From positions 1 through 37,974 of the forward strand of contig NZ_PKOJ01000012.1 in assembly GCF_002860325.1 (NCBI RefSeq): DNA of 37,974 nt. The letters are read 5' to 3'. Source of the DNA: Neptunicoccus cionae (GTDB lineage: Bacteria; Pseudomonadota; Alphaproteobacteria; Rhodobacterales; Rhodobacteraceae). The notes beneath the pieces are model-generated. The model ran no database searches and was not told the DNA's origin. It saw nothing but the letters and a program-made list of their open reading frames with translations. Each line of letters begins with the position of its first letter. Within the stretch, counting starts at the first letter, position 1. Shown here piece by piece: positions 1,586 to 8,630 of the stretch. The position numbers were made by a program, and so were the translations under genes.

Positions 1586-1674
<89 letters not shown>

Positions 1675-1966: not shown

Positions 1967-2671
1967 CTAGCGGGAGATTTCACCACTAGAAAAAACTTGC
2001 ACAATCATTGCGAACAGATCTTCTGCGGAACGACCAGAGATATCGACGCAAAGCTGACCGACAGACATTTCGAATGACAGTCCTCGTCTTGGGTTCACTA
2101 GGCCAACGGAAGGGATTTCAGCTTCTCGCGATGCTGAGTTCAGCGCTGTGTAGGTCAAAAGCTGTCTTAGGTCGGCACCTCTAAATGACCTATCGACGGT
2201 CTTAACTTCGAACAGCGTCGATTTAGTCAAAATGTCGCCCTCTGAAGCGTCTACAAATCCACATCCCTTGAACAACGGACGTGTTCTTACCGGTAGATTA
2301 GCTCCTTTAAAGAACGCGACTAGCCTTTTCTCAATTTCTGCGGCCTCGGCTTTCTCGCTTTGCTGCAATGGCGTGTCCAGATCGACGCCCTGTCCGAGAA
2401 AAGGTTTGAGTCTACGTTTCGTATCGATCCATGCGTTTTCCTGTAACTCCGCCGGATCTGTCGGATTTCCTGCAGATCGGATAACTTCCACCATCATTGA
2501 AAAGGCAAATTCAGCGATCAGTGCCTTTCGGCCTGTCTTATCAGATTTCATGGGTGCATCGAACCGATCGAGATGCTCGAGGTTCAACCGCCGAGTAAAA
2601 TGCTCCAGCATAGGGGCGGCTTCAGCCCAAAAAGCGTTGTACGTTGACGAGAAGGTTGCGGCGTCAATCAC
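1967..2671 (-). CDS. PD-(D/E)XK-like nuclease partner of the reverse transcriptase
   Basis: A 234-aa protein of no family I can name. The C-terminal half has a PD-(D/E)XK nuclease-like signature: Asp146 in EGDILTK, Glu155-Val-Lys157 in LFEVKTVD, then a helix with Gln170 and Tyr174 (RQLLTYTAL) as in Mrr/RecB-like folds. A conserved-looking GLVNPRRGLSF strand-turn follows at 190-200. The N-terminal 120 residues are mostly helical, with no motif seen. The GTG start overlaps the RT stop codon (GTGA), implying translational coupling and joint function. The fold assignment is by motif only, so it could be a DNA- or RNA-binding relative without activity. In an anti-phage system it would be the likely effector or a partner acting on the RT product. 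Confidence 0.7.
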   Translation of the reverse strand: MIDAATFSSTYNAFWAEAAPMLEHFTRRLNLEHLDRFDAPMKSDKTGRKALIAEFAFSMMVEVIRSAGNPTDPAELQENAWIDTKRRLKPFLGQGVDLDTPLQQSEKAEAAEIEKRLVAFFKGANLPVRTRPLFKGCGFVDASEGDILTKSTLFEVKTVDRSFRGADLRQLLTYTALNSASREAEIPSVGLVNPRRGLSFEMSVGQLCVDISGRSAEDLFAMIVQVFSSGEISR

Positions 2672-4305
2672 AACGGAACACTCCAGTTCTGCTGTGCCTG
2701 CATCTTTTCACCGGCCCACTTCAGTACGAGCATCTCAAACGGATCAAATTCTTTTTTCATATGATCTCGCCAATGCTTACCTTCGTCCTTCAAGATGAAA
2801 GATGAAGCAATGAATGCGCGTCTCTCGGGAGCGCTCAACTCTCGATACCGATTTTTGAGATCGGAAAGCCAATACCACTCACCCCATCGGGCCATTACTA
2901 GAATTATGTCTCGCCGAATTAGCTCCGAAGGCCGATTATCAAACAACTTTTGGAGCAAAAACTGGACCTGAGGCGTATTGCTATGAGCTAAGACACGGAT
3001 CGCGAAGCTCGTGTGCATGTCTACCCTAAAGACGTGGGAGTCTTGATCGATAAGTTGTTGGATTTTGGCCAATACGGCATTTTGTGTCCCTTCTTCAAGG
3101 TGATCAAATTGATCGTCGATCATCATGAGCACCGATGAGAAAATTGGGTAAAGGACATCGCAGTTGTCCATCACCGACAATACCGCATCCTGCTTTGACT
3201 TACCTTCCAAAAACTTGATTGCGGAAATAATCTTCCGAGCGAGAGACGTGTGAACCCTGCTCTTGGCCAACTCCTCTTTGAGCATGCCTATAATATCAAA
3301 TTTTCGGACCTCTGCCTTGAGCGCTTCGTAGTCATCGTCTGCGGTTGGGGAATACGGATCAAACCTGAGCGAAAAGCGCATCAGGGTAGCCCGTGAGTGA
3401 TCGATTGCCGCATCAGCGGCCTGCTCCTCATCGGGCTTTTGTTCATCTTTGATCGGACTTGTGGCTTTGAATTCTGTCGAACTCATAATCCTAGTCTTTG
3501 ACTTCTGCAGCGTAAGCCCCTGATTTATGAATAGCTTCTCAGAGAGGAAAATGAGATTCCGATAAGCGTCCTCTTTCGTTTGAGCAAACAGGTGGTAGTC
3601 ATCTGCAAACCTAGTGAATACTATACCTTTCGATTGGAGTAGCCGATCAACTTGGTTGATCGTAATCTCGGAGAGAAGTCGAGCTGCTGGTCCGCCAATG
3701 GGCAAGCCAAAAGAGTTTGTATTGGAGAAATTTGACAGGAAACTCATTATTCTCTTTGGATACGGAGTTTCTCCAGCGACTTGCCGAAGAGCGTTCTCAA
3801 GCCGGTGGTGACCTAGCCTAGGATAAAACTCTGAAATATCACATATGACAGTAAATGGATGAACTTCGGCCAGCTCCAATGACTTCTTCATGAATTGAAA
3901 CCAACCCACCTCACGTGAGAAGACGTCCCCAGTTTCCGTGTTTGGCTCAAATCGATAGGAAAACACCGCCTCATTCTTACGATCAATCCTGGCACGCTCA
4001 ATCGATTCACCAATTGCTGTAACTGAAGCAAGAAAATGAGCGTTCCACATAGGGTCAATTTGAGTGGCCCATCGAAAGCCAGAATAGGTGACTGGCGTCA
4101 ACGAACTGACATTCTTAGGTGGAAACTGATTCAAGTATTGCTCAAATTTCTCATCATACTCAATCACCAGCTCGACTGCCTCTGTCTCCTTGTCAAAAAA
4201 CGCATGGTTTTCAAACGGAAATGGAAATATGTCAGTATCGCCGTGTTTGATGACATTCTGAACAGCTAGTTTTGCCGCTTTCTTGAACTCGGCTTTGGTG
4301 ACCAT
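2668..4305 (-). CDS. Reverse transcriptase, putative anti-phage (UG/Abi-like class)
   Basis: A 545-aa protein with a reverse transcriptase domain in residues about 80-270. Motif A is CDISEFYP with Asp156, motif B is GLPIGGPAARLLSE (200-213), and motif C is FADD (233-236), which replaces the usual YADD. A LQKSKTRIM motif-D/E-like segment follows. Residues about 320-545 are helical and HEAT-like, as in the AbiA/AbiK/Abi-P2 and 'unknown group' defence RTs, whose C-termini are alpha-helical repeats. No group II intron maturase, integrase or retron hallmarks are seen. ATG 4305 is chosen over TTG 4311 because GAGGAAA lies just upstream. It overlaps the downstream nuclease-like gene by 4 bases. A role in phage defence is inferred from class and location; the exact RT group cannot be assigned by eye. 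Confidence 0.85.
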   Translation of the reverse strand: MVTKAEFKKAAKLAVQNVIKHGDTDIFPFPFENHAFFDKETEAVELVIEYDEKFEQYLNQFPPKNVSSLTPVTYSGFRWATQIDPMWNAHFLASVTAIGESIERARIDRKNEAVFSYRFEPNTETGDVFSREVGWFQFMKKSLELAEVHPFTVICDISEFYPRLGHHRLENALRQVAGETPYPKRIMSFLSNFSNTNSFGLPIGGPAARLLSEITINQVDRLLQSKGIVFTRFADDYHLFAQTKEDAYRNLIFLSEKLFINQGLTLQKSKTRIMSSTEFKATSPIKDEQKPDEEQAADAAIDHSRATLMRFSLRFDPYSPTADDDYEALKAEVRKFDIIGMLKEELAKSRVHTSLARKIISAIKFLEGKSKQDAVLSVMDNCDVLYPIFSSVLMMIDDQFDHLEEGTQNAVLAKIQQLIDQDSHVFRVDMHTSFAIRVLAHSNTPQVQFLLQKLFDNRPSELIRRDIILVMARWGEWYWLSDLKNRYRELSAPERRAFIASSFILKDEGKHWRDHMKKEFDPFEMLVLKWAGEKMQAQQNWSVPL

Positions 4306-4513
4306 TATCAAATTTCCTCAATGCAACGCCTGATACTTATCAACCATGACGATAGTCATCTTGTGAGATCGCATCAACTCCATCGCTTTCCGAAATAGGT
4401 TCGGTTGTCCAAATGGTCAGTTCGCCGAGGCCAAGATTCTCTTCAGCGGCCAGTGCCGGCAAAGCAGGCTGCGACCGCAGCAACGTGACCGGTCGATGAA
4501 GGGTCAGGCTAGG
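4306..4513 (-). other. Leader region upstream of the RT; possible non-coding RNA
   Basis: About 200 bases without a gene lie between the zinc-ribbon ORF and the RT. The segment 4385-4513 is G+C rich with several short self-complementary patches (for example GCTGCGACCGCAGC near 4469-4482), unlike the A+T-rich RT gene. Several defence RTs use a structured RNA encoded next to the RT as template or scaffold, so this is the natural place to look. No conserved RNA is recognised, and it may instead be decayed DNA. Confidence 0.35.
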
Positions 4514-4810: not shown

Positions 4811-5959
4811 CTAAACCCAACAATATTTCCCTGCTGCCTTTTGCAGACGTTCACCTACTGTTTTCGGATGTTCTTCACTCATGTCCCGAAGCGTTGCGGT
4901 GTGCCGATCCATAAAGTCAAAGAACTCGTTTTCCCCGACCTCCGAAATTGCCGCGCGGGTGAAGAATAGGCCCAAAATCTGGCGGTCGAGTTCTCGCATT
5001 TTGGCGGTTCGGTTAGCGAGCACTACGTCTGACGGGGAAACACCGCTACGATGCTCGGTCAGGTCTGTTGTGACTGTCTCTGCAAACGTTTGCCATAGCT
5101 CATGCGTAGGCCAACGGGCGCGGTTGCTGTCGTGGGTTGGGATGGTGTAGCGCATCCGTTGGACAGCATCTCTGAAGGCATCTCCGAGCTTTGCGCGAAC
5201 GTCTGCCCAAGAATGGATTTCAAATTTATTACGCAGTTGCTTTGATCCAAGCCTCAGCTCGAAACGCCAGACTTGGCTGGTTGATTGGTCGGTAAGGTCG
5301 AGCGGGTCTTCGCCACATCTTGCGCGTTCCGCATTCCAGATGGTAAGCCAGCCGTGCTTGGCTTTTTGCATGACTTCAAGCCGCTTGTCGTAGATTGCCA
5401 ACTGACGGTTTGCAATTTTTCCAGCACGAAGCCCTGTTACACGCGCACCGCGGGCCTCCGTGGTGGTTTCGTCAACTCCGGTATCTTCTGTTGTGCTGGT
5501 TCCGGGCGGGGCAATCAAACAACACCGATCCGGTTCGAACCACGGCGCCAGAAAATCCACAGCAAAGTCGGTTCGGGTCACGCGCAGTTGGTGTTCACCA
5601 TAAGGAATTTCCAATGCCTCCATGACTTCCCGAAAATGTTGCTCGGCATGATCTAGGCCTCCCGTGGCCAAACCAAAGGCACGGAAATCTACGGTTATGG
5701 CAGGGTTGAAAGCTATGCGGTCTAAAGGGTCTTGGAAAAGCCAAATAGCGCCTGTTTCCCCCGTACGAGCTAGGAAATTCCTGCCTCTACTGGGGCTAAC
5801 GAAAAGAACAGTTTCTCCAAACTGGGTATAACAATCTTGCCCAATCTTTTTTGCGAACTCTCTTGCAGCTGCAAGTTCTGCCCGAAGAGTTAGGGGGATT
5901 TCAGCTTGGACTGTGAATTTCAGACCATCAAAGCCCCTGTGTAGTATTTGTACGCTCAT
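4811..5959 (-). CDS. Replication initiation factor (Rep_trans-like)
   Basis: A 382-aa protein resembling the rolling-circle replication initiation factor family (Rep_trans) found in small plasmids, filamentous phages and integrative elements. The visible signatures are RTDFAVDF (129-136), LAIYDKRLE (187-195) and VWRFELRLGSK (230-240), in the family order Asp-rich strand, YDK motif, R-x-E-L strand. Members nick and bind the origin to start replication of the excised circle. The start at 5959 has a weak AAGAGA ahead of it. The leader to the right holds several inverted repeats that may be the origin. The catalytic tyrosine cannot be assigned with confidence. Confidence 0.75.
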   Translation of the reverse strand: MSVQILHRGFDGLKFTVQAEIPLTLRAELAAAREFAKKIGQDCYTQFGETVLFVSPSRGRNFLARTGETGAIWLFQDPLDRIAFNPAITVDFRAFGLATGGLDHAEQHFREVMEALEIPYGEHQLRVTRTDFAVDFLAPWFEPDRCCLIAPPGTSTTEDTGVDETTTEARGARVTGLRAGKIANRQLAIYDKRLEVMQKAKHGWLTIWNAERARCGEDPLDLTDQSTSQVWRFELRLGSKQLRNKFEIHSWADVRAKLGDAFRDAVQRMRYTIPTHDSNRARWPTHELWQTFAETVTTDLTEHRSGVSPSDVVLANRTAKMRELDRQILGLFFTRAAISEVGENEFFDFMDRHTATLRDMSEEHPKTVGERLQKAAGKYCWV

Positions 5960-6452: not shown

Positions 6453-6490
6453 TGGCGCAATTAGCGCTCGGAATGGAGCTAATTGCGCCA
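6453..6490. repeat. 13-bp perfect inverted repeat
   Basis: TGGCGCAATTAGC (6453-6465) and GCTAATTGCGCCA (6478-6490) flank 12 bases. The right arm overlaps the stop codon of the 239-aa gene. No U tract follows on the minus strand, so it is not a textbook intrinsic terminator. It lies in front of the AlpA-like gene and could be an operator or an RNA hairpin separating the int and alpA-rep transcripts. Confidence 0.7.
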
Positions 6491-7198
6491 GTGCGCGTTT
6501 TGGCGGTCGGCTTTGATCCGCTTTTTCATCGCGTTGAGAACAGTTTTTTCGGGTGTTTCCGGTGAAAGCTCGGCAAATACAGCAACGCAGAACCTTGCGG
6601 CTTTGGACGTGGCCACTCCGTTGAGTTCATCGCGTGTGAAGTCTCGGGAGAGAGAAATGCACCAAAAATTCCGAATATCTTCGATCCAAACGTCTAAGTA
6701 CCGGTTGCCTTGCGGTCCAGTTTTTTGCTTGCCCAAGCCAAACTGACGTATGTATTCCGCTGCGTCGGCAAGGAAATAGGCTTGTCTGCGTAATGTTTGT
6801 ACATTGAGAAATGAATCCGCGCGTTCAGGTGGTCTGTAGGGCTTGTCTAAGTGTCCGTCATAGGCATAGTCGGCTTCGTAATCTTCGCATTTCAAATAAT
6901 AGTCTCTTTCATTGTCGTAATACGACGCACTTTCTAAAATGTCTTGGTAAGGCTCTTTAATCGTTTCCAAAAATGCTGATAGCTTGGCGACTTCACTAGC
7001 TATCCGTTGAAGCTCTTTGTGTTGGTCTGATACCGAACCAAGATTTGCCGCCTCTTTTCGCCGTTGGACAAATCTCCCGCACACTTCGTTAAGCTGTGAT
7101 TTTAGTAGTGACGTATTAACGGCTGGAATATCAAATTCGATGAAAAGAGATTCAATGAATGCGTCAGGAAGTGTCCCTTCAAAACTCTCATGTTCCAA
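6479..7198 (-). CDS. Island protein of unknown function, 239 aa
   Basis: I do not recognise this family. The protein is soluble and probably mostly helical. It has an acidic, tyrosine-rich middle (ESASYYDNERDYYLKCEDYE, about residues 90-110) and a basic C-terminus. It starts at TTG 7198, with AAGAGGT about 7 bases ahead overlapping the integrase stop codon, so it is probably translated with the integrase. That coupling suggests a role in element maintenance or recombination. No signal peptide, membrane segment or metal motif is visible. Confidence 0.65.
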   Translation of the reverse strand: MEHESFEGTLPDAFIESLFIEFDIPAVNTSLLKSQLNEVCGRFVQRRKEAANLGSVSDQHKELQRIASEVAKLSAFLETIKEPYQDILESASYYDNERDYYLKCEDYEADYAYDGHLDKPYRPPERADSFLNVQTLRRQAYFLADAAEYIRQFGLGKQKTGPQGNRYLDVWIEDIRNFWCISLSRDFTRDELNGVATSKAARFCVAVFAELSPETPEKTVLNAMKKRIKADRQNAHWRN

Positions 7199-7210: not shown

Positions 7211-8398
7211 TTAAGACACGATGCGGACAATCTTTGTCGGCGGGTTATTGATGCCAAGAGCCAGTTGCAGAGACGCGGCGTTTTCCTCTGCTGCTTTCAA
7301 GATCGGCTCATCCGCTAGATGAGCGTAACGCATGGTTGTCTGCAACTGCGTGTGGCCCAAAAGTTTGCCAACCATCTGGATTGGCATACCCGACGATACA
7401 GCATTTGAAGCGTAGGTATGGCGTAAGTCATGAATCCTAGTGTTGGGCAATCCGGCGCGTTCTCGGATACGGCGCCAAGGGTGTTGCAGGTCCGTGATGT
7501 GGCGCCCAGCAACAGCACCGCAGATCACGTAAGGATTGTCTAACTGGCGCGGCAAGCCTCCCAATACGTCACGCGCTGCTTGCGGTAAGGGGATACGCCG
7601 AGCGCCTGTTTTAGTATCCGGCAATTCCATCCGCTGAGGTGTGATGTAATCCCATTTCAGCGTTTGAATTTCGCCCAATCGGCACCCTGTTAGGATAAGA
7701 AGGCGGAAGGCGGCGATCACATACACCGTTTCTGATCCGTCCTGCTCACAAGTTGCAAGCGCCGCGCCGAGCCGCTGAAGCTCGTTTTGGCTTAGAAAAG
7801 CTTCGCGCTTCTTTTCGCGGAACTTAGGAACATGCCTGCACGGGTTGGACCCGTCCGGCCGCAGCCCCCAGACCTCTGCAAGATTGAACATCTTGGAAAG
7901 GACGCCCAACACGCGGTTTGCCTGATAGGGTGTTGCCTTCAGCTTGTGATGCAATGCGGATATGTCTTTGCGTTCTACATCGACAACTTTGAATGCGCCA
8001 ACTGCAGGCTTGATGAAGAGAGACAGGCAACGCTTGTATTCCGCAGCAGTTGAGGGCTTGCAACGTTCAAGAACGTGCATTTCAAAGAACCGGTCGCAAA
8101 GCGCATTCATGGTCGAGGCGCGGCGATGAATGCTTATGTCTTCAATGGGATTTTCGCCCATGGCCGCCTTACCAAGAAGATCCTTCGCTTTGGACCGCGC
8201 CTGATCCGGCGTCAGAACACCGTGCCGACCAATTGAAGCGCGACCCGTGCGACCGCCTTTGGGATACTGGACCTGATAGGTTCGCGCCCCTGAAGGCAAT
8301 ATGCGAACGCCGAACCCTTTCACTTCGCTATCCCATGCAAAGTAGTCTTTGGCTTTCGGTGTTAATCCCTCAACAAAACGCTTCGTCAATTTCGGCAT
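7211..8398 (-). CDS. int: Tyrosine recombinase (P4-type integrase)
   Basis: A 395-aa site-specific integrase with the usual three parts. The N-terminal arm-binding domain (DUF4102 type) contains FAWDSEVKGFGVRILPSG. A SAM-like core-binding domain covers about residues 95-180. The catalytic domain has the Arg in LTGCRLGEIQ, HDLRHTYAS with the His-x-x-Arg pair, LLGHTQLQTT, and the nucleophile Tyr in MRYAHL. ATG 8398 is preferred to TTG 8404 because GAGGAG lies 7 bases before it. It lies just inside attR and recombines the tRNA-fMet site to integrate or excise the island. Confidence 0.95.
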   Translation of the reverse strand: MPKLTKRFVEGLTPKAKDYFAWDSEVKGFGVRILPSGARTYQVQYPKGGRTGRASIGRHGVLTPDQARSKAKDLLGKAAMGENPIEDISIHRRASTMNALCDRFFEMHVLERCKPSTAAEYKRCLSLFIKPAVGAFKVVDVERKDISALHHKLKATPYQANRVLGVLSKMFNLAEVWGLRPDGSNPCRHVPKFREKKREAFLSQNELQRLGAALATCEQDGSETVYVIAAFRLLILTGCRLGEIQTLKWDYITPQRMELPDTKTGARRIPLPQAARDVLGGLPRQLDNPYVICGAVAGRHITDLQHPWRRIRERAGLPNTRIHDLRHTYASNAVSSGMPIQMVGKLLGHTQLQTTMRYAHLADEPILKAAEENAASLQLALGINNPPTKIVRIVS

Positions 8399-8573
8399 TT
8401 TCAATCTCCTCTGCGGCCTGCTGTTGGAAGCGAATTGGAATTTTCACGGGCCAAACCGTGGCGTAAGAGGTAGAAAAGCGCAGTAGGTTCGGTCAATAAA
8501 AAAACATCAAAAACAAGAAGATAGAGTAAATCGGAGCAAGCGGGAGAAGTCCGTCGAAGTGGTCAAAGGCGCT
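8399..8573. other. Region between integrase and attR (candidate arm sites)
   Basis: These 175 bases carry no gene. They include a short CACGG/CCGTG hairpin (8445-8460) and an A-rich tract near 8497-8530. Integrase arm-binding sites and the int promoter normally lie here, but no repeated arm motif could be defined by eye. Confidence 0.4.
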
Positions 8574-8630
8574 CTCATAACCTGAAGGTCGTAGGTTCAA
8601 ATCCTACCCCCGCAACCAAAATACTGATTT
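8574..8630 (+). repeat. attR: 57-bp direct repeat, right end of the island
   Basis: This is the second, perfect copy of the tRNA-fMet 3' segment, starting inside the anticodon loop. It has no tRNA 5' half and cannot be a functional tRNA. On the usual integration model it is the original chromosomal 3' end, displaced by the insertion. The flanking sequence, including the terminator, is therefore chromosomal. Confidence 0.93.

Follow-up and report, generated by a model that had tools for sequence, protein, structure and literature searches.

Among the defence-associated reverse transcriptase (DRT) systems, DRT8 is distinguished by a PD-(D/E)XK domain, which is described as its defining trait (PMC12596737), and two 2026 articles present it as defensive but without an established mechanism (PMC13213688, PMC13314766). 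One review also gives a PNP-type protein, 'Cap17', together with DRT8 (PMC10952713). Class 1 reverse transcriptases (RTs) are reported to bear helical repeats and, in the studied cases, to make untemplated DNA (PMC13174585), with tyrosine priming described for AbiK and Abi-P2 (PMC9508834). In DRT1, a nitrilase is reported to be activated by DNA synthesis of the system itself (PMC13275509). Against this background we analysed a stretch of 37,974 nucleotides from Neptunicoccus cionae (contig NZ_PKOJ01000012.1, positions 1 to 37,974; hereafter the window), in which a gene for an RT is overlapped by a gene for a nuclease-like partner protein. Judged from sequence, the pair almost certainly belongs to DRT8; it is one more DRT8 operon, well formed and on an island with exactly defined ends, and no new kind of system. 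The classification paper for DRT8 is reportedly that of Mestre et al. 2022.

The assignment is carried by the PADLOC profiles. The best family for the RT was Drt8 (PDLC03783; 547.2 bits, E 1.3e-164, residues 8-534 on profile positions 4-492 of 493), the second best being RT_UG21 with 117.9 bits, and the best family for the partner was the DRT-labelled RTasPDDEXK (PDLC03797; 224.2 bits, E 4.3e-67, profile positions 1-226 of 226). RVT_1 on the RT was the sole Pfam match above cut-off for either protein, and no NCBIfam model reached its cut-off for the RT or for the partner. A first-pass annotation, made from the sequence alone, had recognised motif A (DISEFYP, D156-P162) and motif C (FADD, with D235 and D236) of an RT of the unknown group (UG) or abortive infection (Abi) kind, which is borne out by the Drt8 match and by the residues D156, D235, D236 and also K270, unchanged in 15 of 15 rows of the RT alignment. 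The nuclease-like signature that it had noticed in the partner (D146, E155-V-K157, Q170 and Y174) likewise proved invariant among the 11 partners compared, in which E54, D167, R169, N193 and R195 are also unchanged. Because of the full-length profile matches and these invariant residues, the motifs of the two proteins are not attributed to chance.

The gene boundaries fit a pair described earlier as overlapping by four bases, and the overlap was located at the junction given in Table 1. The RT gene starts with an ATG at 4305, with the Shine-Dalgarno-like GAGGAA on its 5' side and an alternative in-frame TTG at 4311, and its stop codon ends at 2668, whereas the partner starts with a GTG at 2671 and its stop codon ends at 1967. 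In 10 of the 11 pairs the partner frame is open to a candidate start codon that overlaps the RT gene by 4, 11 or more bases, and at the remaining locus (L009) the genes are separated by a 10-base gap. At the plasmid locus L025 the recorded nuclease start (6694) is probably too late, as the frame is open up to an ATG at 6574, which overlaps the RT.

Table 1. Features of the DRT8 operon and of the island that carries it (window coordinates; functions are predicted).
Feature	Position	Strand	Description
drt8 reverse transcriptase	2668..4305	minus	545 aa; fingers/palm with D156, D235, D236 and helical C-terminal half (about 298-537)
DRT8 partner, RecB/Cas4-like PD-(D/E)XK nuclease (predicted)	1967..2671	minus	234 aa; D146, E155-V-K157, Q170xxxY174
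Overlap GTGA, 4 bases	2668..2671	minus	RT stop TGA and partner start GTG
tRNA-Met(CAT), integration target	1586..1662	plus	ARAGORN; Rfam tRNA 64.9 bits; 3' part opens the left repeat
Left end repeat (attachment site)	1618..1674	plus	exact 57 bases; weaker similarity on to 1755
Right end repeat (attachment site)	8574..8630	plus	exact 57 bases; weaker similarity on to 8711
Tyrosine integrase	7211..8404	minus	Pfam Phage_integrase 77.2 bits, Arm-DNA-bind_3 46.5 bits; phrog_1 integrase E 2.8e-66
Island gene like replication initiation factors (Rep_trans)	4811..5959	minus	382 aa; Pfam PF02486 26.5 bits, below the cut-off of 29.6; weak
Island gene without family	6479..7198	minus	239 aa; Pfam, NCBIfam, PADLOC and PHROGs scans

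The first-pass annotation had taken the two genes for a defence pair and, recalling no described DRT type with such a nuclease, had suggested that it might be new. As an RT-nuclease unit the reading is sound in outline, but the claim of novelty was mistaken, since PADLOC holds both Drt8 and RTasPDDEXK and DRT8 has been tied to a PD-(D/E)XK domain (PMC12596737). Of the two outcomes named beforehand as refuting it, the first came about, in that this partner already belongs to a described DRT type; as to the second, the partner neither lacks a nuclease fold nor fails to accompany the RT elsewhere. The window nuclease is only 18-36% identical to 7 of the 10 other partners, and sub-lineages therefore exist; beyond this divergence we found no support for a DRT type unrelated to those described. 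Such a type is ruled out, for practical purposes, by the full-length matches of both proteins to existing DRT8 models with large margins and by the similar description of DRT8 in PMC12596737. Set against described DRT8, we found no essential difference; the host and the island are other ones. No gene of the Cap17 type was recognised in the window, the relatives not having been searched for one. UG10, at one time guessed as the UG number of DRT8, was dropped because UG10 is given as DRT7 (PMC13314766, PMC13174585).

The long helical C-terminus that had been read from the RT sequence is present in its AlphaFold model, where helices span residues 298-537. Confidence by block (predicted local distance difference test, pLDDT) reaches 81-95 from residue 361 onward and 73-85 in residues 321-360, whereas residues 281-320 have low values of 39-62. 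The model aligns over almost its whole length with DRT6, DRT4, AbiK and Abi-P2 at 12-17% identity in the structural alignments, which suggests a Class 1-like architecture of an RT domain followed by a helical C-terminus. This order is common to the window RT and to DRT4/DRT6, AbiK, Abi-P2 and AbiA, yet DRT4 and DRT6 have been presented as systems of one gene (PMC13213688) whereas the window RT gene is overlapped by that of the nuclease. In the low-confidence loop joining the RT and helical parts, Y318 (3352-3354, minus strand) is kept in 14 of 15 RTs and is a candidate priming residue.

The model of the partner (pLDDT 87.1) matched ACE1, MGME1, AdnA, Dna2 and AddAB, and its nearest folds, of the Cas4, MGME1, AdnAB/AddAB, Dna2 and RecB kinds, suggest a RecB/Cas4-like PD-(D/E)XK nuclease. 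The arrangement D...ExK...QxxxY is the motif of this group, and both fold and arrangement are common to the partner and to ACE1, MGME1, Dna2 and AddAB. Cas4, AddB and Dna2 carry a four-cysteine iron-sulfur site, but the window partner has just two cysteines in its 234 residues and so would have no such site; it has no helicase domain either. The number of cysteines ranges from 1 to 6 over the 11 partners, and only those of L009 and L011 have four or more. A search by sequence for a solved relative of the partner returned two weak rows only, an antitoxin (E 0.0099) and a ribosome-binding factor (E 0.38).

Conservation of the pair, for which the earlier annotation had proposed a genome survey, was followed through several collections. 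A scan of genome contigs gave 25 pattern matches that resolved into 7 loci, and in all 7 the nuclease lies directly downstream of the RT. The RT as query found 6 records in the plasmid collection at E 1e-30, of which 5 were used (H3 was omitted, being of the same species and identity as H2 and at nearly the same position); L023, L024 and L025 carry the nuclease, and L021 and L022 do not. At E 1e-60, the phylum panel of 398 genomes contributed 4, the window's own included, and at the other three loci (L026, L027, L028) a hidden Markov model of the 11 partners detected none within about 5 kb on either side. Two of 293 genomes in the panel of relatives matched at E 1e-60, namely the window's own and G206, whose contig is as long as that of L008 (116,241) and which was counted once with it. 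Altogether, Drt8-matching RTs were collected from 16 distinct loci, the window included, and 11 of these carry the nuclease. Drt8 was the best listed PADLOC family for the RT at all 16, where the scan of L009 used the longer piece of a broken frame and one PADLOC listing covered only E below 1e-40. RTasPDDEXK was matched by 10 of the 11 partners, the one at L009, not scanned with this model, having been matched by phmmer alone (E 4e-43).

Searches were also made with the partner as query. Among genomes of the class, 4 of 385 matched at E 1e-10, and three of them (the window's own, G742, whose locus lies within L006, and G206) have the RT alongside; in the fourth, G802, a 439-aa protein matches weakly (47 bits), and its locus of 3.3 kb shows no RT match. 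The phylum panel returned the window's own genome alone (1 of 398 at E 1e-15), and the plasmids 2 of 72,556 records at E 1e-4, both adjoining an RT. In these sequence searches the RT is thus seen without the partner, and the partner, the weak G802 match aside, is not seen without the RT. L009, whose RT carries a frameshift, was omitted from an RT tree of 15 rows. In this tree a branch with support 93/95, just below the program's mark of 95/80, separates the 10 rows with the nuclease from the 5 others. L022 and L028 are very long branches that meet, and their placement is therefore unsure. One pair (L010), with an RT 49% identical to that of the window, comes from a metagenome-assembled genome of Acidobacteriota, which suggests either transfer between phyla or misbinning.

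As to how such a pair might work, the best overall explanation, which we hold slightly likelier to be right than wrong, is a predicted antiphage DRT8 operon in which untemplated DNA synthesis switches on the nuclease. The RT would assemble into an oligomer and use a protein hydroxyl to start untemplated DNA, as reported for AbiK, DRT4 and DRT1; this synthesis, by way of its DNA adduct or assembled state, would be altered by phage infection and then turn on the partner nuclease, which would cut phage or host DNA. Protein-primed, untemplated synthesis coupled to a nuclease effector is inferred because of the analogy with Class 1 RTs, AbiK/Abi-P2 and DRT1. On this analogy, template-independent synthesis by the RT is probable, and for the nuclease as an effector under RT control the chances appear even. 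DRT1 resembles the window pair in joining an RT to an enzyme, but it belongs to Class 3 and has its nitrilase domain within one protein, whereas the window encodes a separate PD-(D/E)XK protein.

The nuclease might instead act as a brake that trims or degrades the single-stranded DNA of the RT and so renders it harmless, in which case inhibition of the nuclease by phage, or its saturation, would let toxic DNA accumulate. The nearest folds of the partner speak for this, as nucleases of the Cas4, MGME1, AdnAB/AddAB, Dna2 and RecB kinds work on single-stranded DNA or on the ends of DNA. However, the host already supplies such exonucleases, and RTs across the other side of the tree occur without a partner. 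Cases that lend a brake support have been described, host ExoI neutralising the DRT9 product (PMC12483538) and phage ORF55 shielding the DRT4 product from exonuclease (PMC13213688), yet we regard a brake as unlikely. Less likely again is a futile cycle, in which untemplated DNA linked to protein is made without pause by a Class 1 RT and trimmed without pause by a dedicated RecB/Cas4-like nuclease, until phage proteins that block RecBCD-like nucleases upset this balance and bring about toxicity; if this were true, DRT8 would sense counter-defence against end-processing nucleases.

Besides untemplated synthesis, we considered that a conserved non-coding RNA templates the RT as in DRT2/DRT9, with the nuclease processing or responding to the templated complementary DNA, an RNA template being known for Class 2 DRTs (PMC12632851). 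The flanks of the pair were compared with those of three close relatives only. The DNA resembles that of L007, whose RT is 95% identical, between a point 90 bases 5' of the RT ATG and one 131 bases past the partner stop; with L006, the similarity extends from 17 bases upstream to 2 bases past the stop, and with L005 it starts at the RT ATG and ends in the region of the partner stop. Apart from this short similarity, L007 has at a different distance an 84% identical copy (3347-3389) of a 43-base stretch that in the window lies on the 5' side of the RT gene (4446-4488), which would suit an RNA. Against it, the folding of the flanks is ordinary, no better than that of most shuffled sequences (z -1.03 upstream and +1.78 downstream), Rfam finds nothing but the tRNA, and the likeness of the RT to Class 1 enzymes extends over almost all of its length. 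The flank results speak for the absence of a dedicated RNA without proving it, and we consider templating of this kind improbable.

The pair is, from the sequence evidence, cargo of an integrative island of about 7 kb in tRNA-Met, in accordance with the earlier description of a mobile island. The exact 57-base end repeats are 6956 bases apart, weaker similarity extends them to 138 bases, and the tyrosine integrase is placed just within the right end. GC content is 0.473 in the pair, 0.498 in the island and 0.570 in the window right of it. When 33 genomes of the genus were searched with the right flank of the island, matches to the tRNA region and genes were found in 32. When the fetched stretches of the 15 other loci were searched by tblastn (E 1e-5), neither the integrase nor the Rep-like protein nor the 239-aa protein was matched, and the pair therefore seems to move between different elements. 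The sub-threshold Rep_trans match hints at a replicating integrative element or satellite. The 239-aa protein gave nothing at the curated cut-offs of Pfam and NCBIfam, and the listings of PADLOC (to E 1) and PHROGs (to E 0.01) had no entry for it. A phage-borne origin was rejected, as a tblastn search of 50,697 phage records at E 1e-10 found no relative and none of the 11 viral-contig stretches with a peptide-pattern match encoded one. The window begins at contig base 1, and by eye an rRNA operon seems to end in its first bases. Three weaker matches to the Drt8 profile lie at other places in this genome (L002-L004; C1:1144333-1144686, C15:244508-245074 and C6:111-413) and are presumably other reverse transcriptases.

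The surroundings of the related loci vary. A defence family was matched by 4 of 10 neighbour proteins tested, two each at L022 (Gabija GajA/GajB) and L025 (Lamassu LmuB/LmuC), and by none of the other six; L027 has an AbiEii-like gene as neighbour. These two loci, L027 and the plasmid loci L024 and L021 described below hold distant members of the group. At the close nuclease-bearing loci L006, L007, L008 and L010, none of the 5 neighbour proteins tested matched a defence family, and in the window itself PADLOC had no match for the 7 tested proteins right of the island or for the 3 other island proteins. On a Sphingobium plasmid, a Drt1a gene (L024:7467-11159, minus strand; 1230 aa, 1278 bits) adjoins the DRT8 pair and places two DRT systems together. 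On an Aminobacter plasmid, a type VII-A1 retron RT-DUF3800 gene (L021:6767-8653, 834 bits) comes right after the Drt8-matching RT. A HerA-like (DUF87) ATPase is encoded directly 5' of nuclease-free Drt8-matching RTs at L021 (2534-4786) and L027 (2508-4745); the two are 85% identical and may therefore be one lineage, and none was found at L022, L026 or L028.

For DRT8, the analysis adds a fold assignment, a Class 1-like RT with a RecB/Cas4-like nuclease as suggested by the models, and a split between nuclease-bearing and nuclease-free RTs. The nuclease residues do not vary among the 11 sequences, which include one of another phylum. As DRT8 stands without an established mechanism in the two 2026 articles (PMC13213688, PMC13314766), the candidate residues identified here offer direct mutants to test.
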